Shown: positions 17,622-51,429 of the stretch, piece by piece
Layout of the letters: each line of letters begins with the position of its first letter
Numbering within the stretch: position 1 is the first letter of the stretch
Assembly (NCBI GenBank): GCA_030526175.1
Contig: JAUNDJ010000005.1
Span: forward strand, 1-53,359
From: Bacillota bacterium
Lineage (GTDB): Bacteria; Bacillota_I; Bacilli_A; Erysipelotrichales; Erysipelotrichaceae
Length of the DNA stretch: 53,359 bases
Direction: 5' to 3'
Position numbers and translations under genes: made by a program
Notes under the pieces: generated by a model
What the model saw: only the letters and a program-made list of their open reading frames with translations
What the model was told of the DNA's origin: nothing
The model's database searches: none

Positions 17622-17637
17622 AAGGTAAATTTACCTT
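17622..17637. repeat. Dispersed palindrome, copy 1
   Basis: AAGGTAAATTTACCTT directly abuts the TAG stop of the preceding gene; the right flank GT keeps the longer consensus, the left does not. It lies about 90 bases before parA. Confidence 0.85.
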
Positions 17638-17725
17638 GTAGATTTGTACCTTTGTTTAGTGATGACGATTTAAAGAAAATAGAAGCAGAAAGGTTCCAGT
17701 AATGACTGGATTAAGGAAAAACAGA

Positions 17726-18580
17726 ATGAAAGTTATAAGTGTAATTAATCAAAAAGGTGGCGTTGGTAAAACGCAGACAAGTATCAATTTAGCAGTAGGA
17801 CTTAGCAGAAAAGGTAAAAAAGTACTATTGATTGATGGTGATGCACAAGGTAACGCAACTAGTTATTTTATGAATGATGTCAATAAAGTGGACCTATTGA
17901 AATTGGTACAAATGGAAGTTACTAATGAAGATCCATTAGTTTGGTTAGAAAAAGCATTGGGTGAAGCTGAATATGAAAAAGATATCAATGATGTTTTATT
18001 AGGTGAATGTGACATTATGGAAGCTGCCTATTTAACAGGAATTGATAATTTGTACATTGTACCATCAACTGAGACAAGACTTATCAATACGGATCAGTTA
18101 ATAAAGACTACAAATAAACTTCAACATAATCGTTTGAAGAAAGCTTTAAGAAGTATCAGAAAGGATTTTGATTATGTAGTCATCGATAATGCTCCTACAT
18201 TTAATACGATTACTTTAAATACTTTATATGCAAGTGATGAAGTGATCATTCCATTAAAGATTGGAAGATTTGAATTAGCTGGGTTTATTCAGACTATGAA
18301 AGAGCTAGAAAATCTAATGAATGACTTTGAATGTTTCTATAAGATCTATGTGTTATTCAATATGATTCCTAGAGGCAAAAGACCTTTATATCATGCATTT
18401 ATAGAAAAAATGAAACAGTTATTTACAAACAATGACATGAAAGTGTTGGAAACAACGATAGGATATCAGGAAGCAGTTGCTTCTAAGTCAGGCATGGCCT
18501 GTCAGTTACTGGTAGATACAAAAAGTAAGATTGCTGATGATTACAGAGCATTGGCTGATGAAATTTCAATGGAAGGATAG
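17726..18580 (+). CDS. parA: ParA-family partition ATPase
   Basis: A 284-residue Walker-type ATPase of the ParA/Soj family. The deviant Walker A is KGGVGKTQTS (after MKVISVINQ), Walker A' is LLIDGDAQGNAT, and Walker B is FDYVVIDNAPTFN. The start at 17726 fits AAGGA at 17713-17717 and the family N-terminus; an upstream ATG at 17702 adds eight residues. It is followed by a second ParB-like gene with 9 bases between, forming a normal parAB pair. It should move or position the element's circular form, or tether it to the nucleoid. Confidence 0.9.
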   Translation: MKVISVINQKGGVGKTQTSINLAVGLSRKGKKVLLIDGDAQGNATSYFMNDVNKVDLLKLVQMEVTNEDPLVWLEKALGEAEYEKDINDVLLGECDIMEAAYLTGIDNLYIVPSTETRLINTDQLIKTTNKLQHNRLKKALRSIRKDFDYVVIDNAPTFNTITLNTLYASDEVIIPLKIGRFELAGFIQTMKELENLMNDFECFYKIYVLFNMIPRGKRPLYHAFIEKMKQLFTNNDMKVLETTIGYQEAVASKSGMACQLLVDTKSKIADDYRALADEISMEG

Positions 18581-18589
18581 GTGATAAAG

Positions 18590-19300
18590 ATGAGTTTAAC
18601 AGATCTACAAGATATGAAGCCTAAGATGAATCATCTTCAGTCACTAAGAAAAGTTGATATAGAAGATATCAGAGAAAATGTTCATAACATATTCGCTCAA
18701 AGAGATATTGAAGAATTAAAGGAAAATATAAAAAAAGATGGATTATTAAAACCATTAGAAGTTTATCAGGATGGTGATCAGTATATCTTGATTGGTGGTC
18801 ATCGTAGATATAATGCACTTTTAGAACTTTATATGGAAGATGCAGTAGAACCAGAAATTAACTGTATCGTTTATCCAAAACCTAACAGTGAAAATGATGA
18901 AATGCTTCAGATTATTACCTCAAATGCTCAAAGAAACATGAGCAAAGATGAGATGGTAGAAGTAACAAAGATCTTATTAAAAGTTTTGGAAAATGAACCG
19001 GATAGAAAACCATATCTGATGGATAGAAGAACATGGATTGGTGGTTATCTTGGAGTATGTGGTAAAACTGCCCAGGAATATATCAATATTGCCAATGGTA
19101 AAGAAACTAAAAAGAAAGCTAAAGTAGTAGATCATACTTTTGATTATGCAGAACAGCTATTAAGAAATAAGTTCCGTACCAAAGCGAAAATTACAAAAAA
19201 CAAACTAACGTTATCGTTTAGCGATGTAGCAGATTTGAATAGAATTTTAGAAATGATGGACTGTCTAGAAGAGTCATCAATGGAGGTAGCAAATGTTTAA
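18590..19300 (+). CDS. parB: ParB-like partition protein (second)
   Basis: A 236-residue ParB-family protein: N-terminal region RKVDIEDIRENVHNIF, then the ParB nuclease/CTPase-like domain with DGLLKPLEV and YILIGGHRRYNALLEL (GHRR box), the ITSNAQRNMSKDEMVEV helix and a C-terminal KNKLTLSFSDVADLNRIL. The start at 18590 uses the AGGTG ribosome site; a GTG at 18581 lies within that site. Cognate partner of the upstream ParA by position. The next gene overlaps it by 8 bases. Confidence 0.85.
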   Translation: MSLTDLQDMKPKMNHLQSLRKVDIEDIRENVHNIFAQRDIEELKENIKKDGLLKPLEVYQDGDQYILIGGHRRYNALLELYMEDAVEPEINCIVYPKPNSENDEMLQIITSNAQRNMSKDEMVEVTKILLKVLENEPDRKPYLMDRRTWIGGYLGVCGKTAQEYINIANGKETKKKAKVVDHTFDYAEQLLRNKFRTKAKITKNKLTLSFSDVADLNRILEMMDCLEESSMEVANV

Positions 19301-19586
19301 AGTTATTTTATGTGGAAAGATCAGCAGTGATATTTCTGTAAAAGAAGTAGGAGACAGTAAGGTATGCAACTTTACTGTTGCCTGTAAGAATTCATTTGGT
19401 AAATATGAATCTCATGTCAGATGTTCAGTCTGGGGATCATTTGTAGATGAATTAGTAAATGAAGATTATAAAGATAAGCTAGTTTTAATTGAAGGTGAAG
19501 GTACAAATAAGCTAATGGATAAAAATGATGGCAATCGCCATTACATCTTCAATGTTAAATGCTCAAGAATTGAAAAGTTGGGATAA
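19293..19586 (+). CDS. Single-stranded DNA-binding protein, short
   Basis: A 97-residue OB-fold protein of the SSB family: MFKVILCGKISSD, then CNFTVACKNSFGKYESHVRCSVWG, then LVLIEGEGTN. It lacks the Gly/Pro linker and acidic DDxIPF-type tail of housekeeping SSB, so it has only the DNA-binding domain. It probably coats the transferred strand or helps element replication. It overlaps parB by 8 bases. Confidence 0.85.
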   Translation: MFKVILCGKISSDISVKEVGDSKVCNFTVACKNSFGKYESHVRCSVWGSFVDELVNEDYKDKLVLIEGEGTNKLMDKNDGNRHYIFNVKCSRIEKLG

Positions 19587-19639
19587 GAGACTTTCGCCCT
19601 GAATAGGCAAATAAACAATAGACGTAAGTCGGCGGTCTC
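19587..19639 (+). ncRNA. Candidate structured RNA / leader between ssb and the TOPRIM gene
   Basis: GAGAC (19587-19591) pairs with GTCTC (19635-19639), and CGCC (19595-19598) with GGCG (19631-19634) across a 3-nt bulge. Inside, GAC-GTAA-GTC (19621-19630) is a hairpin with a GNRA-type loop. GCC (19596-19598) can instead pair with GGC (19606-19608), giving a second fold. There is no T-run after it, so it is not a simple terminator. It ends just upstream of the next ribosome site. No known riboswitch class is recognised. Confidence 0.4.
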
Positions 19640-19662
19640 TCTCCCTTTTAAGGATGATGAAA

Positions 19663-20610
19663 ATGGATATAAAACTAAGAAGAAAAGAGACAAAGGTTTA
19701 TGATCTTGTTGCATTATCAGCTGACTTGGGATTTACACCTGTTAGAGTCAGTAATCGCTATTATTCATTAGAAGAACATGATTCTGTAATGATTGATACA
19801 GTCAGAAATACCTTTAAGCAGTATTCTACCAATGCATTTGGTGATGCAGTTGCCTTTTGTATGTCACTTGGATTGGAAGCTAATGAAAAGTTTAAGAGCC
19901 TAACATATGCTTTAAAATATGTTGAGGAAAGAATAAAAGACAACCCTCAAAGTAAGGTAGATGTTCAAAATGTTAAGCATACTTTTATCAAGAAAGATTT
20001 GAACATGCCACAGGCTGCAAGAGATAACAAAAGAGTTTATCGATATATGGATCAAAGATGTATTGATGAAGAAATTGTTGATGAATTTATTAGAAACAAA
20101 TGGCTTTACCAGGAAAAGCAACATAACAATCTGGTGTTTGTATCCTATAAGGATAATCAGCCAGTATTTATTACAGAAAAAGGAATAATTCAGGAATTAA
20201 GATTCATGAAAGAATATCCAGGCAATGATTATGATCATTGTTTTTTTATTGACTATAAAAGCGATACATTAGTTGTAACTGAAGCAATTGTTGATATGAT
20301 GTCGTTCATGACTTTAGATATAGAGCATTATAAAGAATCATCATATCTTTCAATTAATTCAACAACGAAAGATAATGCAATTTATAAGCAGCTTGAAGCT
20401 CATCCTGAAATAACAAAAGTAAAGTTAAGGCTGGATCATGATGAAGCAGGTATTAATGCAACAACCAGAATTCAAAATAATCTGAAGGAATTATTTCCTT
20501 CAATTGAAGTGGATATAGATTATCCACCTAGTGAAAAGGACTGGAATGATTATTTAGTATATGACGTTAATGGGAAGGAGAAGTTAGATGAGTTCTCAAT
20601 CATTTTTTAA
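19663..20610 (+). CDS. TOPRIM-domain protein (DUF3991/Toprim_2-like primase-related)
   Basis: A 315-residue protein. The N-terminal half resembles DUF3991 (LVALSADLGFTPVRVSNRYYSL). The C-terminal half has TOPRIM features: VVTEAIVDMMSF with the catalytic-type Glu, then KLRLDHDEAGINAT with the D-x-D pair, and a final DYPPSEKDWNDYL as in element-encoded TOPRIM proteins. These are thought to act in DNA priming or processing during element replication or transfer. The start at 19663 is favoured by AAGGA spacing over ATGs at 19654 and 19657. The CHC2 zinc finger of full DnaG primases is not present. Confidence 0.75.
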   Translation: MDIKLRRKETKVYDLVALSADLGFTPVRVSNRYYSLEEHDSVMIDTVRNTFKQYSTNAFGDAVAFCMSLGLEANEKFKSLTYALKYVEERIKDNPQSKVDVQNVKHTFIKKDLNMPQAARDNKRVYRYMDQRCIDEEIVDEFIRNKWLYQEKQHNNLVFVSYKDNQPVFITEKGIIQELRFMKEYPGNDYDHCFFIDYKSDTLVVTEAIVDMMSFMTLDIEHYKESSYLSINSTTKDNAIYKQLEAHPEITKVKLRLDHDEAGINATTRIQNNLKELFPSIEVDIDYPPSEKDWNDYLVYDVNGKEKLDEFSIIF

Positions 20611-21202
20611 AACAGCATTGAAGATATCACTGGTATCAATGATGATGCTTTGTTTAGTGGGATGTCATTCAAAAAATAAAGAAAACATCTATAAGGTAAA
20701 AGAAGATACAACAATAGATGAGTACTTAATGTTATCTAATCAAGGCATTGATTATTTTATTCCAAGATTAGATTCGAAATATTGGAATGAATTTAGAACT
20801 ATTAATAATGAAACGAAAGTCGCTAAAAGTAAGAATAAGGAAGCAGCTTTCTATATTATCAGAGCTGAAGATATAGGTGATGGTAAAGAGTTTAAAACAA
20901 CATTGGATGAGGCATCTTTAAAGAAAATATTAAATAAAGAAGCGGAGATTTATGTTGGTGAACTTAACGAAAAGAGAAACAGTATCAATTACGAAAAGGA
21001 TATTAAATACTTTGATGCTAAAGGAACGATTGCTGATAAGCATTATTATGCATCTTACTTTCAATCTAATTGTGAGATTCCTTCAGTAAGTATTCGTTAT
21101 GTACCAACTCTATATGTCATTGTTTATGAAAATCAAAATGATGAAGATGACATTATCGATATGGTACAGACAATCAAGGAATGGACATTCAGATTAGATT
21201 AA
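20588..21202 (+). CDS. Predicted lipoprotein
   Basis: A 204-residue protein with a basic start, a hydrophobic segment and a lipobox LCLVGC about 27 residues in, so it should be lipid-anchored on the outer face of the membrane. The mature part is charged and of unknown fold (FIPRLDSKYWNEF, EWTFRLD). It overlaps the TOPRIM gene by 23 bases and is translated from an ATG within it. It may be a surface or entry-exclusion factor of the element; that is context only. Confidence 0.7.
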   Translation: MSSQSFFKTALKISLVSMMMLCLVGCHSKNKENIYKVKEDTTIDEYLMLSNQGIDYFIPRLDSKYWNEFRTINNETKVAKSKNKEAAFYIIRAEDIGDGKEFKTTLDEASLKKILNKEAEIYVGELNEKRNSINYEKDIKYFDAKGTIADKHYYASYFQSNCEIPSVSIRYVPTLYVIVYENQNDEDDIIDMVQTIKEWTFRLD

Positions 21203-21263
21203 TTTGTACATTTTTATTAATGATGGATGCAACGTATAGTAATAGTGAGGAGAGTGATGAAAG

Positions 21264-21923: not shown

Positions 21924-21942
21924 GCAGTAGAGGTATTGATTT

Positions 21943-22500: not shown

Positions 22501-24197
22501 ATGGAAAATAAACTGAGACCTTCCGTTATTAAACCATGGAAAAAGTATTATGATTTAGATATTGATAAGCTGGAAGTACCAGCAATGACAATTTATGAAT
22601 ATGCATGGAGAAATAATCAAGAACATTTAGAAGAGATAATGTTCAATTATTATGGTACAGAAATAAGTTTTAGATCCTTTTTTTGTTTGGTTAATATAAT
22701 TGCTGATGTTATGAGTGAAAAAGGTGTGAAAAAAGGTGATATTGTTACAATTATGTCTATGCAAACACCAGAAACAATAGCCACATTATATGCAATAAAT
22801 AAAATAGGTGCGATTGCGAATATGGTATATTTGACATATACATCTGATAGAGTATTAGCAACATTACAAGATACGAATTCAAAGTTATTTTTTGTTTTAG
22901 ATAATGTTATCAAAACAGTTGAGGAAATAAAAAATAAAATACATATCCCGGTAATTGTTTACTCATTAACTGATTCAATGCCATTAACACTAAGAATATT
23001 ATCAAAACTAAAACAACCTAAAATTGATAAAGAATTTATTACTTTTAAGAAATTCTGTGAAACACAAACAACTAGGCAGGTAAATAGTGTTGGTGCATTC
23101 AATGATCCTGCAATTATAGTTTATACTAGTGGTACAACCGGATTACCAAAAGGTGTGGTCTTAAGCAATAATAACCTTAATGCTTTGGTTTATCAGTATT
23201 GTTACACAGATATTCATTTTGGTAGAAGAGAAACTTTTTTAGATGTATTGCCAACATTTATTGGCTTTGGGATAGGAATGATGGTCATTGCGGTATGCAA
23301 TGGCATTAAGACTTATTTATGGTTAGAGCCGACTGCTGAAAAAATATCAGAACAATTTTGGAAGATTAAACCTAATCATATTGAGTTAGGTAAAGCGCAT
23401 GCATTAAAAATAATAGAGAATAAAAGAGAAGATGTGGTTTTAGATTTTGTGATAAACTTTGCTAGTGGTGGAGTTGCGTTTTCTGAAAACGAAGAAAATA
23501 GTATAAATGAATTTTTAGCTAACCAGGGTGCTAATTCAAAATTTGTTTATGGATATGGTATGACTGAATGCGCTTCATCTGTATGTACAAATTCAAATAA
23601 AGCTTATAAAAATGGTAGTTTAGGAATCCCCCTTCCTCTTACAACAATAAAAATTGTAGATATCGATACCGGAGAAGAATTAGGATATAATGAAAAAGGG
23701 GAAATTTTAATTAAATCACCTAATCTAATGCTTGAATATTATAAGAACAACGAGGAAACTAATAAAGTAATTGAATTTGACAATGATGGCAATAAATGGC
23801 TTCACTCAGGAGACTTAGATATATAGACGAAGATGGATTTGTTTTCTTGAAAGGAAGACTGAAAAGAATATATACTGTAAAGGGAAAGGATAATTATATT
23901 TATAAATTATTCCCTCAACATATTGAAGACGTAATTAAAGAATACGATATTGTAAAATCTTCAGCTGTTATAGTGTTAGAAGATGAAGAAAGATACCATA
24001 TTCCAATTTCCTTTATTACTATTCATCAGACAGAACTCTCAAAAAAAGAATTAATTAAGGATATATATGAATATTTATCTTGTAGTTTAGATGAATATTG
24101 CATTCCTAAAGAGATACTGATAGTAGACGACTTACCAGTTACTGTTGGTGGAAAAATCGACTATGAAAAAATAAAAAAAGGGTATTTAGAAAACTAA
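22501..24197 (+). pseudogene. Acyl-CoA synthetase-like ANL enzyme, frameshifted
   Basis: An AMP-binding (ANL superfamily) synthetase that would activate a carboxylic acid with ATP. The adenylation signature IVYTSGTTGLPKGVVLSN and the YGYGMTECASS motif are intact in the first 441 codons. The frame then reads GDLDI and stops at 23824-23826. A frame shift of one base at about 23816 would restore GDL-x-YIDEDGFVFLKGRLKRI, the conserved hinge, and continue to 24197 with the C-terminal subdomain, including the lysine region VTVGGKIDYEKI. One base appears to be missing from a glycine codon. It stands alone between twin terminators as cargo. A sequencing error or a programmed slip are alternatives. 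Confidence 0.8.
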
Positions 24198-24245: not shown

Positions 24246-24265
24246 ACAAGGTAAATTTACCTTGT
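24246..24265. repeat. Dispersed palindrome, copy 2 (full 20 bp)
   Basis: ACAAGGTAAATTTACCTTGT, perfect 20-bp palindrome, immediately upstream of a ribosome-site-like GGAAAGGA and a short leader frame before the adhesin gene. Confidence 0.9.
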
Positions 24266-24346: not shown

Positions 24347-24375
24347 ATGCAAATTAAAACGAAAGGATGATTAAA

Positions 24376-25885
24376 ATGAACATTAGAAAATTATTTAAGA
24401 AGACAATGGTATGTCTTACCAGTGCATTTATTGTTGGATCAACGTGTTTAAGTGGCGTCTCTGCTGCTACTTATACAACAGGATCAGTTCATCATGATGA
24501 TTGGATTCTTACGAAACCAGATGGAAGTACGCATGGTCATGAAGGGCAATTACAAGTTAATGGTGTTGATGCCTATTGCGTGGATTATGAAACAACATTC
24601 CACAAAAATAAGACAGTAGTTGCAGGAACCTATAAAGATATTGGATTAACTGCTGAAAAAGCCAAAAGATTAGCAGTTATTGCTTATTATGGCCATAAGG
24701 TATCAGGGAGAACAGGTACTGACTGGTATGCGATTACGCAAGGATTACTTTGGAGAGAAATTGAAGGTAGAACAGATTTAGAGTTTGTTTCTTGTAAAAC
24801 TGCTCCAACTTATGCTGATCAACAAAAATGCTGGAATGCTATCTTAGCTGATGTTGATCGTTATTATACCGCACCATCATTTGCAAAGAACACTTATACA
24901 GTAGATGCAGATGGATCTATTACATTAACAGATACAAATAATGTATTAAGTGATATGGTTGTAGCTAATGCAGGTGGATTGGATGTAAGCATTTCTGGTA
25001 ATAAACTTACAATCAAAGGTAAAAGTGGTGTTACTGGAAAAGTAAATCTAGTATTAAAGAAAAATATTCCAGTTGCTGAAACTGGAACAACAATTGTTTA
25101 TACAGCTGATGATTGTCAGGCTGTAGCTCAGTTTAAGATTTCAGATCCATTCCAAGCTTCATTAAGCGTTGAAATTCAAGAATATGGAAACATTGAATTA
25201 ACTAAATACAACGAAGATAAAAGTGGATTAGTTCCTAATACTGAATATCGTATTACAGGTGTTGGTTATGATAAAACATTTACGACAGATGCAAACGGTA
25301 AAATCAGTATTGAGAGATTAAAAGTTGGATCTTACAAGATTACTGAAGTAAAAGCTAGTGAAGGTTATTTAATCAATACAGGAAGCATGACTGTAACAGT
25401 TGAAGCAAACAAAACTGCAAAAGCTGAATTTACAAACAATGAACCAACAGGTAAAGTTACCTTCACAAAATCTATTGATTTAAATCAGACAAATAACTTA
25501 AAAGGTGATGCTAATGTTGAAGGTGTTACTTATCAGTTAGTAGCAGATGAAAAGATTACAAATAAAGCTGGAACAAAAACATTCTTTAATAAGGGTGATG
25601 TTGTAGAAAGCAAGAAAACTGATGCAAACGGAAAGATTACATGGGATGATCTTCCATTAGGACATTATGTGATCAAGGAAACAAAAACTAACGGAACACT
25701 TGTATTAAATGAACAAACTTATAAGGTTAGTATTGAATATGAAGGACAAACAGTTGCTAAAGTATCAAGAATGGCTGAAGGTTCAGACAGAGTCAATATG
25801 CAAAAGATTCAAATCTTCAAGTCAGGAACTAAAGATGGCATCTCCGATTTAGTTAAAGGATTACAAGGTGCTGAATTTACATTCA
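24376..25885 (+). CDS. Thioester-domain CnaB surface adhesin, exon 1 (split by group II intron)
   Basis: The first 503 codons of a protein of about 1297 residues. It has a signal peptide (cleavage after GVSA, about residue 30) and then a TQxA/thioester domain: Cys68 in VDAYCVDY and Gln122 in AITQGLLW should form the internal thioester that binds host or donor-cell surfaces covalently. CnaB/SpaA-like modules follow, with likely isopeptide Lys in ELTKYN and Glu in YKITEVKA. The start at 24376 has AAAGGA at 24362-24367. At 25886 a group II intron begins; unspliced reading stops 18 bases in. Splicing joins base 25885 to 28609 in frame, giving FTF-KLKSEVDHVGW. It probably helps mating-pair contact. 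Confidence 0.85.
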
Positions 25886-26606
25886 GTGCGACACGTTCAT
25901 AATTGAAAAGATTATGCACTAAGTCGTTGTATATATACAATTGAATAACTTAGGAGAACTAGTTGTTTGAAGAGTGGAATGATAGAGTAACGTCTAAAAA
26001 CGCTCTCGCTAATACTCCGATTGGCAAAAGGTATGTAATGACCTGATGTCAAAAGCTCGGTGAAGTCGGCAGAGAATTACCCTAACATATAATGGTGAGG
26101 AAAGTCATGTAGAGGTATATGATGTAATCTATATGCCGGGCGTCGATTATCTATGGTGAGAATGTGTTTCAAAACACTGACAAAGTTCCGAATGTACGGG
26201 TCTAGATGAATAAATTGTCGAAAGGCAATTCTCCAAATTGGAGGTACACGTGGTAAAGTAAGATTTGCATGTATGAAATACCATATAACGTTACAGGCGT
26301 TAAGTTGGATAGGCAATGTGTACAGGACTATAGGAGCCACCTAAGGATAATTAATGATAGAACAACTGGAACGTGGAAAGCTAGAAACAAAGAGGTTATT
26401 ACAGACCGTTGACGTGTAAAATAGGAAAGGTATGAATAATACTATAACTATTTGAATTCTAGTGAGAGTAGAGGCACAGTACCAGTGAAGCCATGATAAT
26501 AAGTGGTGGAGGGATAGCCTCAAGTCGATTATTTGAAAGGAGATTGAAAACATAATAAACATAGCTTCGAGTATGACAAAGAAAACCATTGAAAGGAATG
26601 GTGCCT

Positions 26607-28469
26607 ATGTTGACTTCGAACAAACATAAAACGATTAAAAAATTAAGATATTTAGAATATTACGATATGCAAAAGATAACTGATGAATTGTACGAAAAGA
26701 GTAGTAAAGGAAATATATTCAAAAATCTAATGTCTCTTATTACTGCTGATGCAAATATCAAATTAGCATATAGAACCATTAAATCCAATAGAGGTAGCTA
26801 TACACCTGGAATAGATGGTAGAACTATAAAAGACATTGCAAAGCTTAAAGAAGATGAATATGTTAACTTGATTAAGAAACAATTTGCATTCTACAAGCCT
26901 AGAGCCGTTAAGAGGGTCGAAATACCTAAAGCAAATGGTAAAACACGACCTTTAGGTATCCCAACAATTGTAGATAGGATTGTTCAACAATGTATACTGC
27001 AAATCCTAGAACCGATTTGTGAAGCAAAATTTTATAAATATTCTTTGGGATTTAGACCAAACTGTTCGGCGGAGCACGCAATAGCAACATGCAGTAAATA
27101 TATGCAACTGAGTAATCTTCATTACGTGGTAGACTTGGATATAAAGGGCTTCTTTGACAATGTAAACCATTCAAAACTTATTAAACAAATTTGGAGTTTC
27201 GGTATTAGGGATAAGAAGTTAATATGTATTATCAAGGAAACCTTAAAAGCGCCTATAGTCATGCCTGACAAAAAGGTGGTATTTCCATCCAAAGGTACAC
27301 CACAAGGCGGTATATTATCACCTTTATTATCTTTGATAGTCCTTAATGAGCTGGATTGGTGGATATCAAGTCAATGGGAAAGTTTCCCGACCAGATATTC
27401 ATACAAATTAAAAGTGCATAAAAATGGGACGTTAGATAGGGGTCATATCTATAGGGAACTAAGGAAAACAAAACTCAAAGAGGTTTATATAGTTAGGTAT
27501 GCGGATGATTTTAAATTATTTTGTAGAGACTATATCACTGCTAAGAAAATGTTTATCGCAACTCAAAAATGGCTTAAAGAAAGACTGAAATTAGATATAA
27601 GTGAAGAAAAATCAAAAATAGTCAATTTAAAAAAGAACTACTCGGAATTTCTTGGATTCAAAATGAAAGTAATACCAAGAAAGAAGAAATATATAGTACA
27701 ATCACATATCACAAATAAAGCAATCGATAAGATTGAAAAATCATTGATGCGTCAAATTAAAGAGATAGAATATCCAAAGAGCAAAAAGGATGAAAGCAAA
27801 GCTATCAATAAATATAACTTAAAAGTTATAGGGATACATCAATACTACTGTTTGGCTACATTAGTAAGCGAAGATTTTCGCAAGATTTCTTACAAGATTA
27901 ATAAGAGGCTAAACAATAGAATATCGGGATTGAAAAAAGATGGCGTATTAGAAAATCATTTCTATGAGAAGAAATACGGAAAAAGCAGTTCTCTACGCTA
28001 TGTTCGAGAGAATGTGATATTACCAATAAATTATGTAAGAATGAAGATAACACATATGAAAAAACCTTTAATTAACAAATATACCATTAAGGGTCGTTCA
28101 TTAATACATGATAACCTCATTCTGGATAACAGTATGATGCAATGGTTATTAAATAATCCTTTGAAGGAAGCAACAATAGAACGAGCAGATAATGCTTTAT
28201 CACTATATTCCTCACAAAAAGGACGATGTCATTTAACAGGATTAGATTTAGAACCGAATTTTATCCATTACCTCTACAAAAAACAACTCAATGATGTAGA
28301 GAAAGATGTCTATAAAAATCTAAGGTTAATATCAAGCGTAGGAAAGGTGCTTATATTCAGTAAAGATATTGAATCAGTTAGATATGCAATAAATAAACTA
28401 AACTTAAAGACAAAATATATAAAAAGAATAAATGAATATCGAAAACTAAATAATTTAGAAATACTTTAG
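26607..28469 (+). CDS. ltrA: Group II intron reverse transcriptase/maturase
   Basis: A 620-residue multifunctional intron protein that splices the intron and reverse transcribes it. RT blocks are visible: PKANGKTRPLGIPTIVDRI, YSLGFRPNCSAEHAI, VVDLDIKGFFDNV, GTPQGGILSPLL, and the catalytic YADD in VRYADDFKLF. The maturase (X) region follows. The C-terminal HNH-type endonuclease domain looks decayed: CHLTG and NLRLIS are kept, but the HH pair reads IHY and the last histidine is lost (VGKVLI). The start at 26607 is chosen by AAAGGA spacing; a TTG at 26589 opens the frame. It lies in intron domain IV. Confidence 0.92.
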   Translation: MLTSNKHKTIKKLRYLEYYDMQKITDELYEKSSKGNIFKNLMSLITADANIKLAYRTIKSNRGSYTPGIDGRTIKDIAKLKEDEYVNLIKKQFAFYKPRAVKRVEIPKANGKTRPLGIPTIVDRIVQQCILQILEPICEAKFYKYSLGFRPNCSAEHAIATCSKYMQLSNLHYVVDLDIKGFFDNVNHSKLIKQIWSFGIRDKKLICIIKETLKAPIVMPDKKVVFPSKGTPQGGILSPLLSLIVLNELDWWISSQWESFPTRYSYKLKVHKNGTLDRGHIYRELRKTKLKEVYIVRYADDFKLFCRDYITAKKMFIATQKWLKERLKLDISEEKSKIVNLKKNYSEFLGFKMKVIPRKKKYIVQSHITNKAIDKIEKSLMRQIKEIEYPKSKKDESKAINKYNLKVIGIHQYYCLATLVSEDFRKISYKINKRLNNRISGLKKDGVLENHFYEKKYGKSSSLRYVRENVILPINYVRMKITHMKKPLINKYTIKGRSLIHDNLILDNSMMQWLLNNPLKEATIERADNALSLYSSQKGRCHLTGLDLEPNFIHYLYKKQLNDVEKDVYKNLRLISSVGKVLIFSKDIESVRYAINKLNLKTKYIKRINEYRKLNNLEIL

Positions 28470-28526
28470 TAAAGTTCGAAGTGTGTAAATTATGTTTAAA
28501 AAATTAAAATCAAATAATCGATGGAA

Positions 28527-28605
28527 CGCCGTGTGCGATGAAAGTCGCATGCACGGTGTGGAGCGGGGGAAAAGATGGAGATTATATCAAAATCTTACCT
28601 ATCGC
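28527..28605 (+). ncRNA. Group II intron domains V and VI
   Basis: Domain V: CGCCGTGTGCGAT, a GAAA loop, and the 3' arm TCGCATGCACGG (28527-28560), with the catalytic CGC triad at the start. Domain VI: AAGAT...ATCTT stem (28572-28596) that should hold the bulged branch-point A. Confidence 0.85.
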
Positions 28606-28608
28606 TAT

Positions 28609-30992
28609 AATTAAAATCAGAAGTAGATCATGTTGGATGGGATAGTGCACCTGCGTATGCAATTGTTGTAACTGACAAAAATGGTAAGGCAAATACATCT
28701 TATTTACCTTATGGAACATATTTGGTTAGGGAAACTAAAACGCCTGCAGATTATATTACTGCACCAGACTTCACAGTTTCAGTAACAAAAGACTATACAG
28801 AATTTGATGATGTTGAACAGGTTAAACGTATTAATGTAAATAACAGACCTTTCACATCTCAATTAAAACTTGTTAAAAAAGATAAAGAAACAGGCAAAAC
28901 TGTTACTTTAAACAGTGCATCATTCAAAATTAAAGATGCAAATGGTAACTATGTGACTCAAAAAGTATCAGGAAAGAAATATGATACTTTCACAACAAAC
29001 TCAAAAAATCAGGTAGTTGTATTTGATGGTAATAATGGTGAAGTATTCTTACCATTATCTTTAGATGTAGGAACTTACAGCGTAGAAGAAGTTAAAGTTC
29101 CTGAAGGATTCCTTGAATTAGAATCACCAGTAACATTTACAATTACAAACACTAGAAACTATGATGTTGATGGTGATGAAGATCCAATCGTTACTGTTCA
29201 GGTTAAAAATGACAGATGTTATGGTAAGTTAGAAGTTAAAAAGTACATTGAAGCATTTGAAGCAGATAAGACTTTAGTTAATAGAGAAGACTTATCAGGA
29301 TTTGAATTCTCTTTATATGCTAAAAAAGATATTATTTCTCCAATTGATGGAAGTGTCTTATTAAAAGCAAATGAAAAATATGGAACTTACTTAACAGATA
29401 AGGAAGGTAAGATTTTTGTCTCAAAGATTCCAATGGGATCATATATTTTAAAAGAAACAAAAACAAAAGATGGATTCGTTTTAGATGATAAAGAAACAGC
29501 CATTACATTTAAACAAACAGATACGGTAACTAAAGAATACACAGTTACTGCTGATATTGAAAACAAGACAACTAAATATGAATTCTCTAAGAAATCAGTT
29601 ACTGGTGATGATGAATTAGAAGGTGCTAATTTAACAGTTACTGATAAAGATGGAAACATCATTGATGAATGGACTTCAGGCAAAGAAACTCATATGATTG
29701 AAGGTTTAACTGTAAATCGAGTTTACACATTAACTGAAGAAATTGCTCCAGATGGATATGTTAAAGCAACAACTATTTATTTCACTGTAGAAAATACAGG
29801 TAAGGTTCAAAAGATTACGATGATTGATAAAACTGTATCAATGTCAAAAGTTGATGTAGGTGGTAAAGAAATTGAAGGTGCTACTATTCAGGTCAAAGAT
29901 AAAGATGGAAATATTGTTGATGAATGGGTATCAACTACTGAAAGTCATTTAATCAAAGGTCTTGAAGAAGGACAAACTTATATCTTACATGAAGAAGTTG
30001 CAGCTGACGGATATGTAAAAGCTACTGATATAGAATTTACTGTTTCTAAAGAAAAGACAGATGATAAAGTGACAATGATTGATAAGATTGTGGATATGTC
30101 TAAAGTCGATGTTGCAGGGAAAGAAGTACCTGGTGCTAAGATTCAAGTCTTTGATGAAGATGGTAATATTGTAGATGAATGGACTTCAACAACAGAGCCA
30201 CACAAAATCAAAGGATTAGAAGAAGGTAAAAAGTACATCTTACATGAAGAAGTAGGTCCTGAAGGCTATGTTGTAGCTACTGACGTAGAATTCACTGTTA
30301 CAGAAGAAAAAGAAAATCAACATCTTGAATTAACTGATAAACAGTTATTCGTTAAGAAAATGGATCAGTTAGACAAATATGTAGAAGGTGCTAAATTACA
30401 GGTATTAGATAAAGAAGGTAATGTGATTGCTGAATGGGATACTAAAGAAGATTATGCTGTTTCTGGATTAAAAGCTGGAGAAACATATATCTTACATGAA
30501 GTAGAAGCACCTGAAAATTATATTAAAGCTGAAGATATCGAATTCACAGTTAAAGATGACAAAGAAAATCAGTATGTAGAAATGATTGATATCAAAACTG
30601 ATGATGTAGATATCACAAAATATGATGCAACAAGCAAGAAAGAATTACCAGGTGCTCATTTAGAAATCAGAGACAAAAATGGTAAGTTAATCGAAGAATG
30701 GATCTCCACAGAAGAACAACATAAAGTAAAATTAGTTGTTGGTGAAACATACACTCTAACTGAAACAATTGCACCAGATGGTTATAAAGTGGCCGAAACA
30801 ATTGAATTTACTGTTGAAGACAATGGTAAAGTTGTACAACAGGTACAAATGTTTGATGAATTATTACCAGCAAGACAAATTGTAAATACTGGTGATAATT
30901 CAAATATCATGCTTTATGCATTATTAGCTTCAGGCAGTGCAGTTGCATTACTTGGAACATATTATTTTGAAAGAAAAAAAGAAGAGGAATAA
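28609..30992 (+). CDS. Thioester-domain CnaB surface adhesin, exon 2
   Basis: The last 794 codons of the split adhesin. From LKSEVDHVGWDSAPAYA it continues a CnaB module, then several more CnaB/SpaA domains. Five tandem repeats of about 73 residues follow (patterns DGNIVDEW, YILHEEVAADGYVKATDIEFTV, with KVDVGGKE and ALVT-like starts), and last the cell-wall sorting signal: IVNTG, a hydrophobic helix (IMLYALLASGSAVALLGTYY) and RKKEEE. The sorting motif IVNTG differs from LPXTG, so a non-housekeeping sortase may act. No sortase gene lies in the window. Repeats suit a long stalk stiffened by isopeptide bonds. An ATG at 28722 is internal, not a separate gene start. Confidence 0.88.
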
Positions 30993-33930: not shown

Positions 33931-34262
33931 TGCAATTCTATTGTCCAAGAGATTATAAAAATGGAAAGTATTACTTCAACAAGTATGATGCATTTGACTT
34001 AATGGTCATGGTACCTTTAGTAGTCATTGGTACATTTCTAAGCGTCATTTCATTATCAATGATGTCACAAGGTAATTTTACCTTCTCAGTTATTGGACTT
34101 ACTTTAGGATTACTGATTGTAGGTACTACATTAATTCTATTTATGCCTTATAAGATCTATCACAATATCTTAAACAGACTCATTGTGGAAATAAGGTTTC
34201 AGTTAAGACAAAAAGACTTCTTATGGTATGGATATAACTTTAATAACTATGAGGATGAATAA
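33930..34262 (+). CDS. PrgI family protein (VirB3-like)
   Basis: 110 residues: a short N-terminal segment (FYCPRDYKNGKYYFNKYDAFD), two membrane segments (VMVPLVVIGTFLSVISLSMM and VIGLTLGLLIVGTTLILF) and a basic C-terminal tail. This is the standard size and layout of PrgI/VirB3 proteins, which sit in the channel and contact VirB4. Usually the VirB4 gene follows directly; here a 2.6-kb block intervenes. A copy of the dispersed palindrome lies inside the gene. Confidence 0.75.
   Translation: MQFYCPRDYKNGKYYFNKYDAFDLMVMVPLVVIGTFLSVISLSMMSQGNFTFSVIGLTLGLLIVGTTLILFMPYKIYHNILNRLIVEIRFQLRQKDFLWYGYNFNNYEDE
34069..34084. repeat. Dispersed palindrome, copy 3 (inside prgI-like gene)
   Basis: AAGGTAATTTTACCTT with the left flank AC preserved. 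Central two bases TT instead of AT. It encodes QGNFTF within the membrane protein. Confidence 0.75.
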
Positions 34263-47226: not shown

Positions 47227-47269
47227 GAATATCTTAAAAGATGTCCTTTTTTATTGGAGGAGAAAAAAG

Positions 47270-47386: not shown

Positions 47387-47828
47387 ATCCATTGAAGATA
47401 CCATTATGGCATTTAGTGAAAAGTATGAAGGTGATTTTAGAAGAATTTATCAAGCGATTGCTACAAAAGAAAGATTAACAGATGAAGAAATCAGTCAGTA
47501 TATTGATGACATTGAAGAAGTTTCATTAAATATCCTAGCACCTGATTATCCACAGTCATTAAAGGATATGGACTGTCCGCCATTTGTTGTATTTTTTGAA
47601 GGCAATCCAGATATCATTGAGAATGAAATTTATTGTCTAGCTAATCCGTATGACAATTCAAAAAGAGTTTTCTTTAGTATTGAACCAACAAAACAGGGAA
47701 TGGAATTCTTTGTGGGCTGTGAAAACAGGAATGACTTAGAACCATTATATGATTTCTTTATTGAACAGCACCCAGAACTAAACTTTATGGATTATAAAGC
47801 AAAGGAAGGTGAAGCAGTATGCCTTTAG
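47379..47828 (+). CDS. DprA N-terminal-like protein
   Basis: 149 residues. The segment LNILAPDYPQSLKDMDCPPFVVFFEGNPDII matches the start of the Rossmann-like DprA/Smf domain (YP..L......P..L...GN). The rest of DprA, with the ssDNA-binding Rossmann core, is missing, so it is only the first part of the family fold. Such short DprA-like proteins occur on ICEs near ArdC and may act on incoming single-stranded DNA. It overlaps small genes at both ends. Confidence 0.65.
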   Translation: MNRSIEDTIMAFSEKYEGDFRRIYQAIATKERLTDEEISQYIDDIEEVSLNILAPDYPQSLKDMDCPPFVVFFEGNPDIIENEIYCLANPYDNSKRVFFSIEPTKQGMEFFVGCENRNDLEPLYDFFIEQHPELNFMDYKAKEGEAVCL

Positions 47829-47932
47829 AAATACTAGATCAGTTTGATTTTGATGAAGTCAATCCATATGACAATGAAGAAAGTGAAGATACTGTTTATA
47901 CGTTAGAGGAGCTTGCAGATGAAACAAAATAA
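47819..47932 (+). CDS. Small acidic protein, 37 residues
   Basis: ATG at 47819 within the end of the DprA-like gene; the protein is strongly acidic (FDFDEVNPYDNEESEDTVY). Its 3' end carries GAGGAG, the ribosome site of ardC, and overlaps that gene by 14 bases. A DNA-mimic or coupling role is possible; nothing more can be seen. Confidence 0.5.
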   Translation: MPLEILDQFDFDEVNPYDNEESEDTVYTLEELADETK

Positions 47933-49214
47933 AGCCAGAGAAGAGATTGTTAAGTTATTTGTTGATTGTCTAGAAAAGGAAGATTTACCTTGGCATCAGG
48001 GATTCATACCATCTAGAACATCATTCAATCCCATTACAAATACAACCTATAAAAACAGTAATCGATTCATTCTCTATTTAAATGAATATATCCATCAGTA
48101 TGATGATCCTAGATGGATGACATTCAAGCAGGCATCAGAAAAGGGCTACCATATTCATAAAGGTGAAAAGGGTGTGCCCATTGAATACTGGAGTATCTAT
48201 GATACCAAAGAAAAGAAGAAACTAACCTATTCACAGTTACATGATTTGTTAAATAAAGAACCTGATAGAAAAGATGATATCAGATATATCTCACAGGTTT
48301 ATACTGTATTTAATGCGAAACAGATGGATGGTATTGAACCATATAAAGAAAACAAAGCTATTATTAAAGATGAAATAGATGATCAGTTTTCGTTACCTTA
48401 TTATCTGCTTTATGAATTTGCTCATGAAACTGGATTAAATCTTAATGAAGATCATAAGGTAAATACTCCATTTTATAATTTAAATGATGATAAGGTTGTA
48501 GTTCCTGATCATCATCGATATAAATTAACTGATGCATTCTTTAGTGATGCATTTCATGAAGTATCACATTCAACAGCACATCAAACAAGATTAAATAGAC
48601 CAATTAAATACTTCATGGAAGATCGAGAAGCATATGCAATAGAAGAACTGAGAGCCGAAATTGGCTCTTCTTTTATTTGTAATGATTTAGGGATTATTCC
48701 TCAAAAGAATGAAGATTACTTAGAAAACAGTCAGGCATATATTCAAAGCTGGTTAAAAGCTATTAAAGAGAAACCTAATACATTGTTTGCCGCTATTAAG
48801 GATGCAGAAAGTATCTGTGATTATATTTTGGATAAAGGACATTATGAACGACTGGTAAAGATAGAAACATCTATTAATGAAGCTATTGTTGATGGAAGTT
48901 ATAAGGAAAATGCAATCAGTAAAGATGAACTAAGAATGATTTTAAGAAATGGTTACCAAGAAGTTGATCCAAAGGAAATGACAACTTTAGTTGATGACTG
49001 GAGTAATCAAAAAGAAGTTGAACCTAAGATTTATTATACTTTTGATGATGAAAAAATTGTATGTGCTGATAATACTTCTAACGATATGTTTATGGAAGAA
49101 TTTAATAAAGAAGATTATCTGTTAGCTTTTCTTTGGATGGCTAAAGGAATGGCAATGGATGAAGTGATGAGTCTAAAGTTTCAGGACTCTAAAGATGCAA
49201 TTGCAGTAAAGTAG
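47919..49214 (+). CDS. ardC: ArdC-like antirestriction protein (ssDNA-binding + zincin)
   Basis: A 431-residue protein. The N-terminal ArdC domain (about 1-130: WHQGFIPSRTSFNPITNTTYKNSNRFIL, GEKGVPIEYW, YTVFNAKQMDG) binds single-stranded DNA. The zincin metallopeptidase-like domain has HEVSHSTAH (HExxH) and the downstream Glu in AIEELRAEIGSSF. The C-terminal region includes QSWLKAIKEKPNTLFAAIKDAESICDYI. ArdC protects incoming conjugative DNA from host restriction. The ATG at 47919 with GAGGAG is preferred to a TTG at 47913. It sits among early-transfer genes near the relaxase, as expected. Confidence 0.88.
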   Translation: MKQNKAREEIVKLFVDCLEKEDLPWHQGFIPSRTSFNPITNTTYKNSNRFILYLNEYIHQYDDPRWMTFKQASEKGYHIHKGEKGVPIEYWSIYDTKEKKKLTYSQLHDLLNKEPDRKDDIRYISQVYTVFNAKQMDGIEPYKENKAIIKDEIDDQFSLPYYLLYEFAHETGLNLNEDHKVNTPFYNLNDDKVVVPDHHRYKLTDAFFSDAFHEVSHSTAHQTRLNRPIKYFMEDREAYAIEELRAEIGSSFICNDLGIIPQKNEDYLENSQAYIQSWLKAIKEKPNTLFAAIKDAESICDYILDKGHYERLVKIETSINEAIVDGSYKENAISKDELRMILRNGYQEVDPKEMTTLVDDWSNQKEVEPKIYYTFDDEKIVCADNTSNDMFMEEFNKEDYLLAFLWMAKGMAMDEVMSLKFQDSKDAIAVK

Positions 49215-49421
49215 GTGATCATAATCGCAGGCACAAGAATCAAATACAATAAGGTTAAATATCCAATAAAAGTAGGCACCAAGTCCTTTGGATGGACCAT
49301 GGTAGCATCCTATACACATCATAATGTATGGGAAAGAATAACAAGATCAGGCGTTCCAATCAGAACGTCTTTTTTTAAGGACGAAGTTCCTAATGAAAAT
49401 GCGACGTATACATGGGATTAA
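49215..49421 (+). CDS. Small hypothetical protein, 68 residues
   Basis: A GTG start at 49215 follows the ardC stop directly. The peptide (KYNKVKYPIKVGTKSFGWTMVASYTHHNVWERI) is basic and Trp/Tyr-rich. The ribosome site is weak, and the true start may differ. I do not recognise the family; linked to ardC by position. Confidence 0.45.
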   Translation: MIIIAGTRIKYNKVKYPIKVGTKSFGWTMVASYTHHNVWERITRSGVPIRTSFFKDEVPNENATYTWD

Positions 49422-49436
49422 TTAAGGCATAAAAAA

Positions 49437-49550
49437 TGCATATGCAATGTTTACGTTATAGAAGTGAAAAAACATCGATAAACTCAACGTTGTTGAGTTG
49501 TACAGGAAGGTAATGTATGCGTGATGTTCACATTTAGGCATACATTATCC
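49437..49550. other. Candidate origin of transfer (oriT)
   Basis: In the 160-base gap before the relaxosome genes lie three inverted repeats: the palindrome TGCATATGCA (49437-49446), AACTCAAC/GTTGAGTT (49481-49499, 3-nt loop), and TAATGTATGC/GCATACATTA (49511-49547, 17-nt loop that itself contains GTGA/TCAC). No T-run follows any of them. Stacked inverted repeats just upstream of accessory and relaxase genes are the usual layout of oriT. The nic site cannot be named. Confidence 0.5.
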
Positions 49551-49582
49551 CTTATCCTGCTAAAGAAAGGAGAAGAATACAT

Positions 49583-49903
49583 ATGGCTAATGATGGCAAT
49601 CTAAGTATTAGATGTACTAATCATACTAAAGAAATGTTTAATGCAATTGCAAAAAAGAATGCTCATTTATCAAAGGGAGAGTTATTAGAAGAAATGATTA
49701 ATAGATATCAAGCAGTAGAGACTATTAATAATGATGCGATTAATGAAGTACTAAAATTAACCCAGCTAAATCATGAATATATTGCATTTATGATGAAGTG
49801 TAATAAATCAATTCCAACCAATGTTGCTACAGTAATTAAACTTATTAACGAAGAAGCAATGTGCGAAAAGTACATCAGAATGAAGTTGAGAAAGGAAATA
49901 TAG
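49583..49903 (+). CDS. RHH-type relaxosome accessory protein (MobC-like, first)
   Basis: 106 residues. The N-terminal segment NLSIRCTNHTKEMFNAIAKK, then LSKGELLEEMINRYQ, matches a ribbon-helix-helix DNA-binding fold (beta strand, then two helices). It likely binds oriT repeats and helps the relaxase nick. AAAGGAGAAG is the ribosome site. It is next to the proposed oriT and a full dispersed palindrome begins 3 bases after its stop. Confidence 0.65.
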   Translation: MANDGNLSIRCTNHTKEMFNAIAKKNAHLSKGELLEEMINRYQAVETINNDAINEVLKLTQLNHEYIAFMMKCNKSIPTNVATVIKLINEEAMCEKYIRMKLRKEI

Positions 49904-49905
49904 TT

Positions 49906-49925
49906 ACAAGGTAATTTTACCTTGT
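49906..49925. repeat. Dispersed palindrome, copy 4 (full 20 bp)
   Basis: ACAAGGTAATTTTACCTTGT, central TT variant, in the 31-base gap between the two accessory genes, 9 bases before the next ATG. Confidence 0.9.
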
Positions 49926-49934
49926 GGTTTTATT

Positions 49935-50210
49935 ATGAACATAAGAAAAGCGTATTGGGTAAGTAAAGATTTTGATAAGAAACTTCAAGAAATGCAAGAG
50001 TATATGAAGGATGTTTGTCATTTGGATTATACAGTAGCTGATTTGTTTGATGAGATGATGTCACTGTATGAGGCTAGAATAAAATTTAATGCAAATATTC
50101 TTAACGAATTATTTAGAGAACATGATGAAGCTATGTTAGATCAATTTTTAATCAGTAATGCTGAAATGCTAAATTCATTAAAGGAGTATATAGAAGGAGT
50201 TACAAGGTAA
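49935..50210 (+). CDS. Second small relaxosome accessory-like protein
   Basis: 91 residues of helical, RHH-like character: MNIRKAYWVSKDFDKKLQEM, then LDYTVADLFDEMMSLYEARIKFN. It resembles its upstream neighbour in size, layout and the final leucine/alanine helices, so they may be diverged paralogues that bind as a pair. No clear ribosome site is seen; the palindrome occupies that place. Its own stop codon TAA falls inside the next palindrome. Confidence 0.6.
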   Translation: MNIRKAYWVSKDFDKKLQEMQEYMKDVCHLDYTVADLFDEMMSLYEARIKFNANILNELFREHDEAMLDQFLISNAEMLNSLKEYIEGVTR

Positions 50211-50221
50211 ATTTACCTTGT
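50202..50221. repeat. Dispersed palindrome, copy 5 (full 20 bp)
   Basis: ACAAGGTAAATTTACCTTGT, overlapping the end and stop codon of the preceding gene, 7 bases before the relaxase ATG. Confidence 0.9.
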
Positions 50222-50228
50222 TGGAATT

Positions 50229-51404
50229 ATGAAGATAACGAAGATAAGATTTTTTGAATATGGACAAAAGCCACCAAAGAATTCAAGATTTAAAGATACA
50301 ATCTCGAATGAAACAGTTGGTGGTTATTTTGATTACACAGGCAGAGAAGAAGCTAAAGATGTTGATAAAGAAATTGTGAAACAAGAAGATGGCTATTTTG
50401 GATATACGGGCAGCCATAGTGTTGGAACTTATAGTTCAAGTGGTGAATTAAATACCAAAGAAGAAAGGGATGCCTTTAAAAAAGAAATAGATCAATGTTT
50501 TCATAAAGATGGTAATCTTTGCTGGGATTATGTCATTTCATTAGAGAATGATAAAGAAGCATATAATTTGGGATTAGAGAACACAGAACAATGGTTATCA
50601 GCAGTCAAAGAATTTCTGCCAAAAATGCTGAAGGAATATCATATTGATTACAACAATACCTTATGGTGGTTTGATCTTCATCGTAATACTGAACATCCAC
50701 ATATCCATCTTGTATTTATGGAAAAGCATCAAACAAGGACTAGAGGTAAACTTACTCCAAGAGAAATGAAAAATGTAAAAAGACATATTTATTCATCATT
50801 AAGTGCGAGAGCAAAACTAAAAGAAAGAACTGGTAAGGATTATAGAACTTTCTTCCAGGAAAAAGATATGTCACTAAAGGAACTGATGACATCAATCGAG
50901 AAAAAGGATTTAAAGAAAAATCCAAAGCTTAGAGATTTATATAAAGTATTACCTAAGACTGGAAGGCTTCAATACAATTCATACAATATGAAGCAATATC
51001 AATCAATGATTAAATCTATTATTGATGATCTGATTCAAAATGATGATGAACTAAATAAAGCGTTTAATGAATATCTAGGTAAGCTGGATCAGTTAGAAGA
51101 GGTGATGAATGAAGAAGGAAATGATGTTGCGACAATAAAAGAAACTGAATTAGAAAAGTTTTATTCTAAAGTAGGCAACTACATACTTCAAAACTTTAAG
51201 AAGACCGAATATGTTGAAGAATCTAAGAAAGATGATAACAAGGTAAATTTACCTTCTAAAACTAAAAAGACCTATAAAAAGAAATATTTAACTGAAGCTA
51301 AACTAAAAGGATATATTCATAAACTTGCCAACGAACAACAAAGTGAAATTGATAAGGCTATTGAAGAATATAATCGAAGAATGGAAGAACAATTACTGGT
51401 ATAA
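50229..51404 (+). CDS. Conjugative relaxase (MobP/MobL-like)
   Basis: A 391-residue DNA relaxase that nicks oriT and leads the strand to the recipient. The metal-binding three-histidine motif is in LHRNTEHPHIHLVF. Candidate catalytic tyrosines are Tyr33 and Tyr36 in GGYFDYTGREEA, a pattern seen in MobP2-type relaxases. The C-terminal part is a Lys-rich, helical region. There is no helicase domain. VirD4 follows 38 bases later. Two dispersed palindromes flank it and one lies inside its 3' part. Confidence 0.85.
   Translation: MKITKIRFFEYGQKPPKNSRFKDTISNETVGGYFDYTGREEAKDVDKEIVKQEDGYFGYTGSHSVGTYSSSGELNTKEERDAFKKEIDQCFHKDGNLCWDYVISLENDKEAYNLGLENTEQWLSAVKEFLPKMLKEYHIDYNNTLWWFDLHRNTEHPHIHLVFMEKHQTRTRGKLTPREMKNVKRHIYSSLSARAKLKERTGKDYRTFFQEKDMSLKELMTSIEKKDLKKNPKLRDLYKVLPKTGRLQYNSYNMKQYQSMIKSIIDDLIQNDDELNKAFNEYLGKLDQLEEVMNEEGNDVATIKETELEKFYSKVGNYILQNFKKTEYVEESKKDDNKVNLPSKTKKTYKKKYLTEAKLKGYIHKLANEQQSEIDKAIEEYNRRMEEQLLV
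51240..51255. repeat. Dispersed palindrome, copy 6 (inside relaxase gene)
   Basis: AAGGTAAATTTACCTT with left flank AC present and right flank CT; coding for KVNLPS in a low-complexity linker of the relaxase. Confidence 0.85.
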
Positions 51405-51409
51405 AGGTT

Positions 51410-51429
51410 ACAAGGTAAATTTACCTTGT
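51410..51429. repeat. Dispersed palindrome, copy 7 (full 20 bp)
   Basis: ACAAGGTAAATTTACCTTGT in the relaxase-virD4 gap, directly followed by the GGAAGGGAG ribosome site of virD4. Confidence 0.9.

Follow-up and report, generated by a model that had tools for sequence, protein, structure and literature searches.

The RK2 protein KorB is a ParB-type protein whose operators are repeated on a conjugative element. It loads at these operators, slides with CTP and silences distant promoters together with KorA; by means of CTP clamps it acts at promoters nearby as well as from a distance (PMC11790492). The IncC plasmid R55 carries 14 scattered parS sites, palindromes of 22 bp over the backbone with one at parAB, and ParB bound in gel shifts with three probes, two of which were plasmid sites (PMC10954446). 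In the chromosomal ParB-parS and Noc-NBS systems specificity is set by few residues in or near the recognition helix (PMC7383237). SXT/R391 elements are integrative conjugative elements (ICEs) with a stabilising partition locus, SrpMRC, which is actin-type and has its centromere assigned upstream of srpM (PMC4489591). We analyzed a stretch of DNA of 53,359 nucleotides from a Bacillota bacterium of the Erysipelotrichaceae (assembly GCA_030526175.1, contig JAUNDJ010000005.1, positions 1 to 53,359 of the forward strand), which we call the window. It carries seven copies of a palindrome in what looks like an ICE, and these palindromes, judging from sequence, are probably binding sites (parS or operators) of a ParB of this element, here named ParB2.

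The region looks like an ICE because of its gene content (integrase, par genes, an ATPase of the type IV secretion system (T4SS) type, relaxase); its right end would lie outside the window. The genes encode a tyrosine integrase, two XRE proteins, a first ParB (ParB1), a protein of 310 aa, ParA, ParB2, a Toprim protein, a VirB4/TraG-type ATPase, a lysozyme/NlpC protein, an ArdC-like protein and a MobL relaxase. The labels PrgI-like and VirB6-like are our own reading of the sequence and come from no family search. By analogy, the best reading of the system is that of dispersed parS/operator sites of a ParABS, which may work like RK2 KorB or IncC ParB. As in RK2, there is a ParB homolog and the sites are spread over a conjugative element, many of them near gene starts. 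Unlike in RK2, each relative has a private site, and there was no KorB domain among the Pfam matches. Scattered palindromes, one of them at the par genes, are likewise found in R55, but R55 is a plasmid with one site sequence, whereas here we deal with an ICE and many elements, with differing sequences and residue-level covariation. ParB2 belongs by profile to the same family as chromosomal ParB and Noc; the site sequences are others and the sites are restricted to the mobile element. With SXT/R391 the element shares the presence of a partition locus in an ICE, although not its actin-type proteins or the position of its centromere. Among the top matches listed in the open-licence literature we found no description of such sites in ICEs of this kind.

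Exact matches of the 16-mer AAGGTAAWTTTACCTT start at 17622, 24248, 34069, 49908, 50204, 51240 and 51412. At 24246, 49906, 50202 and 51410 the match extends to the full 20-bp palindrome ACAAGGTAAWTTTACCTTGT. Two further, degenerate copies could be due to chance. The sites, none of which is assigned to a strand, are as follows.

17622-17637, no strand: site 1, AAGGTAAATTTACCTT, directly after the stop codon of the 310-aa gene and upstream of parA
24246-24265, no strand: site 2, full 20-bp palindrome, about 100 bp upstream of the adhesin gene
34069-34084, no strand: site 3, within the PrgI-like T4SS gene
49906-49925, no strand: site 4, full 20-bp palindrome, between two small genes; the 16-bp core ends 11 bp before the ATG of the second
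50202-50221, no strand: site 5, full 20-bp palindrome, overlapping a stop codon; the 16-bp core ends 9 bp before the relaxase ATG
51240-51255, no strand: site 6, within the relaxase gene
51410-51429, no strand: site 7, full 20-bp palindrome, just past the relaxase stop codon
25448-25463, no strand: possible degenerate copy within the adhesin gene, with two mismatches to the 16-mer (one when the two centre bases are ignored)
47976-47991, no strand: possible degenerate copy with 2 mismatches, within the ArdC-like gene

The initial annotation of this DNA had reported seven copies, with 20-mer starts for the four full palindromes and 16-mer starts for the rest, and had placed five between genes or on a stop codon and two in coding sequence. 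All of this was borne out, the coding copies being those at 34069 and 51240. It had also judged the repeats too numerous for chance; at up to 3 mismatches we counted 22 strand matches in the window against 3.09 expected, and 0 of 100 shuffles reached 22. The search of the whole host genome that it had proposed (2.85 Mb) gave 7 exact sites, all on contig C112 and within the element; the remaining 185 contigs had none, and a control pattern gave 0. None of the seven sites lies in the flank at 1-13.5 kb, as the annotation had stated, and the nearest match there is one with 3 mismatches at 388. Its statement that no T-run follows the copies does not hold for every copy, as the one at 49908 has a T-rich stretch behind it and was flagged on both strands as resembling a terminator. 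Beyond the palindrome the copies have little in common, although three to four of them share TTAC...GTGG as a short context.

The exact motif was rare elsewhere. It was found as a single copy in 1 of the other 271 genomes of the family. The 20-mer had five isolated matches in genome_contigs, a collection of 84,980 species from which records close to the window's genome may be missing, and the three of these loci that had genes listed showed no sign of this element. A motif scan of viral_contigs matched at least 120 stretches, with a second, weaker match at four of the loci read and clusters at none of them. Viral contigs queried with ParB1 and ParA yielded no relative, and plasmid searches with ParB1, the relaxase, the 310-aa protein and ParB2 yielded distant matches or none. 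A search with ParB1 matched 36 genomes, and the 20 loci examined were other element types. Relatives were obtained with the relaxase (E up to 1e-60, across the order), which matched 15 other genomes, nine of them in a second family. In G285 (genomes are given by G numbers) the relaxase is 54% identical to that of the window, and between integrase and relaxase the genes follow in the same order. Our relative set of 17 genomes consists of all 15 relaxase matches and of G271 and G023, which come from a list of 22 genomes, 14 of which were not taken in. Proteins were surveyed in 22 contig pieces of these 17 genomes.

An assumption-free search for repeated palindromes found an own dispersed palindrome in 15 of the 17 related genomes, mostly with a GGCAA-like half-site and in 2-25 copies. 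Examples are ACGGCAA-NN-TTGCCGT in G285, ATGGCAA-NN-TTGCCAT in G300, GTGGCAA-NN-TTGCCAC in G294 and G293, GTAGCAA-NN-TTGCTAC in G289, ATGGAAC-NN-GTTCCAT in G306 and CCCGTCA-N4-TGACGGG in G302, and those of G014, G235, G084, G023 and G271 have a single central base. Families were weak in G309 (2 copies on the relaxase contig and 1 on another), G070 (5) and G056 (3). Shuffled sequence gave 3 copies at most in the first palindrome search. Altogether we collected 199 sites at up to 2 mismatches across 19 contig pieces, among them the match at 388 in the window, which lies outside the element. With loose settings the motif finder was swamped by A+T-rich chance matches, and this run was replaced by another. 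In the latter the large families scored 1e-11 to 1e-49; chance palindromes in 17 other elements, at slightly different settings, scored 1e-4 to 1e-11. The window's own motif came only second (1e-6), as many matches to its A+T-rich core are expected anyway.

Confinement in whole genomes was counted with the form TGGCAA-N(1-2)-TTGCCA. In G235 all 22 of 22 copies lie within 38.5 kb of a 2.6-Mb genome. The element contig holds 8/8 copies in G084, 12/12 in G300 and 9/10 in G294; the 14 copies of G293 are spread over four contigs and the 3 of G309 over two. A single stray copy of this form was counted in the genome of the window, and the control also gave one. Contig C10 of G271 carries at least five TGGCAA-N-TTGCCA sites and is perhaps a further element. 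In genomes with two such elements (G271, G285, G309, G085, G088) the palindromes differ, with one cross-hit in the pieces compared; this gives weak support for selection, because any two elements of the set usually differ. Six genomes (G112, G118, G117, G111, G109 and G119; loci L334-L337, L340 and L341) form a subgroup with a ParB2-like gene close to the relaxase gene, possibly smaller mobilizable elements. Five of them (not G117) have two or three palindromes nearby, GTGGAAA-N-TTTCCAC or, in G119, GTAGCAA-N-TTGCTAC. The initial annotation had regarded absence of the motif from related elements with the same genes as speaking against an element-specific site. The exact motif is absent from them, but a diverged site of the same kind is present in most, which strengthens the case for the predicted element-specific site.

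To find the protein that co-occurs with the sites, the profile of each window protein was run against the open reading frames (ORFs) of all relatives. Three neighbouring genes are listed first.

17702-18580, + strand: ParA ATPase (Pfam AAA_31, 3.2e-44, and others)
18581-19300, + strand: ParB2, the proposed site reader (ParB_N, 2.7e-07; helix-turn-helix (HTH) at about residues 149-175; Lys162 the proposed specificity residue)
16689-17621, + strand: 310-aa protein, no Pfam match, conserved near parAB in many relatives

ParA and ParB2, directly adjacent in the window with ParA upstream, were found in 15 of the 22 relative pieces, which belong to 13 of the 17 genomes; in G306 the ParA match lies more than 12 kb from ParB2. 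No par genes were seen in G070, G056, G197 and G295, where only 33.0, 6.0, 10.8 and 3.3 kb around the relaxase were covered. The 310-aa protein was present in 14 of the 22 pieces, and one of 12 relatives of this protein matches MobA_MobL (8.7e-06). The relaxase is present throughout, because the relatives were chosen by it. Apart from weaker second ParB matches in G307 and G287, ParB1 had a clear ortholog in G285 only, and its profile drifted into ParB2. XRE proteins were rejected as the common reader, as no homolog was found in the pieces of the motif-bearing G300, G289, G306 and G023. The initial annotation had named a ParB-like or XRE protein as the reader; its ParB part is probably right, with ParB2 rather than ParB1, and its XRE part probably is not. 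The ParB2 family profile matches solved ParB, Noc and Spo0J structures, and the match to Noc continues past the N domain. ParB_N was found in 13 of 16 family members, and general HTH models each match one or two of the 16. Gly73, Arg76, Ala79 and Asn115 of ParB2 are invariant in 16/16 members; we take these residues to belong to the CTP-pocket motifs of the ParB N domain. Pfam has a KorB domain model, and it was not among the families matched by ParB2 or the 16 members at E up to 0.01.

The half-site varies with the DNA-binding part of ParB2. We used Mantel tests with one representative per near-identical pair, over 13 elements (12 with a relaxase, 11 with all four proteins) and later over 23. 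Over 13 elements, half-site distance correlated with distance in the ParB2 HTH (r = 0.60, p = 0.0001), and not with the N domain of ParB2 (r = 0.11, p = 0.26) or ParA (r = 0.16, p = 0.13). Over the 11 elements with all proteins, r was 0.60 for the HTH, 0.53 for the relaxase, 0.30 for the 310-aa protein and 0.22 for the N domain. The HTH correlation persisted when controlled for the relaxase (0.41, p = 0.0016), while that of the relaxase controlled for the HTH was 0.05. A window scan of ParB2 peaked at the HTH region (0.60-0.65). Ten later elements gave 0.42-0.46 for the HTH (p 0.004-0.008), but these are not independent, since at least three half-sites (G307, G309 C18 and G085 C14) were found via a predicted core. 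Over all 19 elements with half-sites found de novo, r was 0.44 for the HTH (p = 0.0001) and 0.02 for the N domain. In the 23-element set the half-sites of G023 and G271c20 were re-anchored on GG, and with this r of the first 13 drops from 0.60 to 0.43.

At the level of single residues, Caulobacter ParB Arg173 bonds a parS guanine, and Gln at this position in Noc goes with adenine (PMC7383237). ParB2 residue 162, at the start of the recognition helix, lies one position beyond the equivalent of Arg173 in our own alignment. Lys at residue 162 goes with a GGT core in 4/4 cases (window, G307, G287 and G309 C18) and Arg in 0/16 (Fisher p = 0.0002 for the contrast), and an R-[ST]-x-Q helix goes with C at that base in 10/11 cases, against 2/12 for other helices; these counts were made by hand, and they are of sequences and not of independent events. 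The tree requires two origins of the GGTAA label.

Core predictions were written after the HTH alignment, when the motif scan of the same pieces had shown none of these sites, and the core was predicted correctly in 5 of 7 elements. In G307 and G287 C20 the predicted GGTAA core was found as one site each at the parA junction, with a second in G287 on C21. In G309 C18 the same core, a hedged prediction, was found twice, flanking parB2. GTGGCAA-N-TTGCCAC was found as predicted in G085 C14 and G088 C22, one each. Because G307/G287 and G085/G088 are near-identical pairs, the independent cases number five, of which three were predicted correctly.

The placement of the sites was counted with gene boundaries from mechanical gene calls. 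As many as 123 of the 199 sites are intergenic, though only 2-14% of the span is. Among intergenic sites, 57/119 start within 10 bp past a stop codon (15% expected) and 52/118 end 9-35 bp before a start (19% expected). The junction ahead of parA holds a GGTAA-core site in the window, G307 and G287, and two GGCAA-type sites in G285. Both arms change in step between relatives there, as would be expected of a symmetrical site under selection. In the window, G285, G300, G294, G293, G302, G306, G014, G023, G271, G307, G287 and G309 C18, parA or parB2 contains a site or has one no more than about 300 bp away; none was found at this distance in G235, G084 and G289. In G287 (L362) a GGTAA-core site also stands ahead of a gene similar, by eye, to the second small gene at site 4. 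The relaxase gene has a site no more than about 50 bp upstream in 6 of the 15 pieces that have both (window, G285, G300, G235, G084 and G023). The link to transfer drawn in the initial annotation is thus upheld in part, since the relaxase-upstream site recurs but the sites span the whole element. The presence of sites ahead of parA, and of relaxase and T4SS genes in some elements, suggests a role in regulation as well as in partition.

Several results weigh against the assignment to ParB2. ParA reached r = 0.33 (p = 0.027) over 11 elements. Divergence of the whole relaxase correlated with the motif (r = 0.47-0.53), and because C-terminal relaxase windows reach 0.66, the window scan alone is not decisive. 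The six later elements with de novo sites (the ten without G307, G309 C18, G085 C14 and G309 C8) did not discriminate between HTH (0.35-0.38, p 0.12-0.19) and N domain (0.32-0.36). The 5-base core was predicted by the nearest HTH in 11/23 cases and by the nearest N domain in 8/23. ParB2 does not reach Pfam HTH_ParB, and single-sequence AlphaFold models of ParB2 and the 310-aa protein had a mean pLDDT of 39.9 each, the ParB2 model being unusable. Exceptions to the residue pattern are L335-type proteins with R-T-x-Q but GGAAA, G014 with GGCAA without Arg, and G023 with GGT and Ala. The scans of G310 (15.6 kb) and G287 C83 (8.7 kb) did not turn up the predicted sites. In G307 and G287 the outer bases were mispredicted, as the full half-site of the window was not found in G287 and was found once in G307, on another contig; a looser pattern gave 3 and 2 matches there, as did the control (3 and 2), and dispersal is not evident. 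No palindrome family was seen in the short contigs of G295 (3.3 kb) and G197 (10.8 kb). Finally, the families of 2-4 copies (G285 C82, G085 C5, L334-L342) are at noise level by count alone, because the finder also gave 3-6 copies (1e-4 to 1e-11) in 17 of 20 ParB1-type control loci, and nothing in three; five copies in G088 C44 (1e-12) are slightly above this noise.

These points were weighed together with other possible readers, which are encoded by the following genes.

15716-16636, + strand: ParB1, second ParB, probably not the reader (ParB_N and HTH_ParB)
14768-15552, - strand: two XRE-type regulators, not the common reader (HTH_3)
50229-51404, + strand: MobL/MobP3-like relaxase (Pfam MobL, 2.3e-25; NCBIfam MobP3, 122.4 bits, below the cut-off of 150)
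49583-50210, + strand: two small genes upstream of the relaxase, no Pfam match, homologs in 8 and 6 of 22 relative pieces; at a guess, relaxosome accessory proteins

It is unlikely that the sites form a transfer regulon read by an XRE-type repressor, by the 310-aa protein or by the relaxase with accessory proteins. The relaxase defines the relatives and its divergence follows the motif, four sites cluster near its gene in the window, and the 310-aa protein is widespread, but the relaxase correlation vanishes almost completely once the ParB2 HTH is controlled, the correlation of the 310-aa protein is low and its gene was not found in G084, and XRE homologs were not found in four motif-bearing genomes. 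Reading by ParB1, at the left end of the element, seems quite improbable to us. Of the ten window proteins scanned, this protein alone reaches HTH_ParB, and its ortholog is present in G285; it was not seen, however, in the stretches covered of the many-site relatives G300, G294, G289, G306 and G014, and the 20 loci of ParB1 relatives in the same family, from other element types, had only small palindrome families, mostly at noise level.

Two further explanations were considered. That the palindromes are RNA hairpins between genes, acting as signals of translation, processing or termination, would fit their intergenic positions near stops and starts and the terminator-like copy at 49908. Arm mismatches show no sign of RNA pairing, however (15 G-T and 17 A-C among the 199 sites), other copies lie inside genes, the sequence private to each element varies in step with a DNA-binding domain, and Rfam at gathering scores found only a group II intron in the window, which makes this explanation very improbable. 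A repeat with no reader, spread by copying like a miniature transposon or REP element, is hardly credible. It would account for several near-identical copies in one element; against it, little is shared beyond the palindrome, no long shared flanks or target duplications were seen, and matching positions in relatives hold diverged, still mostly symmetrical sequence.

Two other features of the window concern its genes. The group II intron, with a reverse transcriptase, lies at 25954-28608 inside a large SpaA-type adhesin gene, whose halves are at 24367-25902 and 28722-30992; in G285 a single long ORF (13916-18391) matches both halves. An AMP-binding enzyme is apparently frameshifted, with overlapping frames at 22501-23826 and 23796-24197, of which only the first part was scanned.

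With ParB2 as the reader, we infer physical binding, CTP clamp loading and a balance of partition and regulation as follows. A ParB2 dimer would place one recognition helix on each half-site (AAGGTAA / TTACCTT), and the two central bases would hardly be read. By analogy with other ParB proteins, each site may serve as a loading point from which ParB2, as a CTP-bound clamp, slides along the adjoining DNA. An element-wide ParB2 network, which could form a partition complex on the excised circle and tune the expression of par and transfer genes in a KorB-like manner, appears likely because the sites span the element, often past stops or before starts, including positions beside parA and the relaxase gene.

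In summary, these results provide about 20 natural pairs of a ParB and its site, some of them from one to three copies, together with a candidate specificity residue, and they make elements of this kind recognisable from sequence alone. A wider and rather doubtful suggestion is that a large family of ICEs has ParB clamps at up to about 25 private sites, so that the element would be a nucleoprotein domain silenced and segregated as a unit, with codes driven apart so that co-resident elements avoid cross-reading. The results open the question whether private ParB codes set the compatibility of ICEs that share a cell. If the KorB-like reading is true, control of conjugation by ParB clamps would extend well past the plasmids studied so far.

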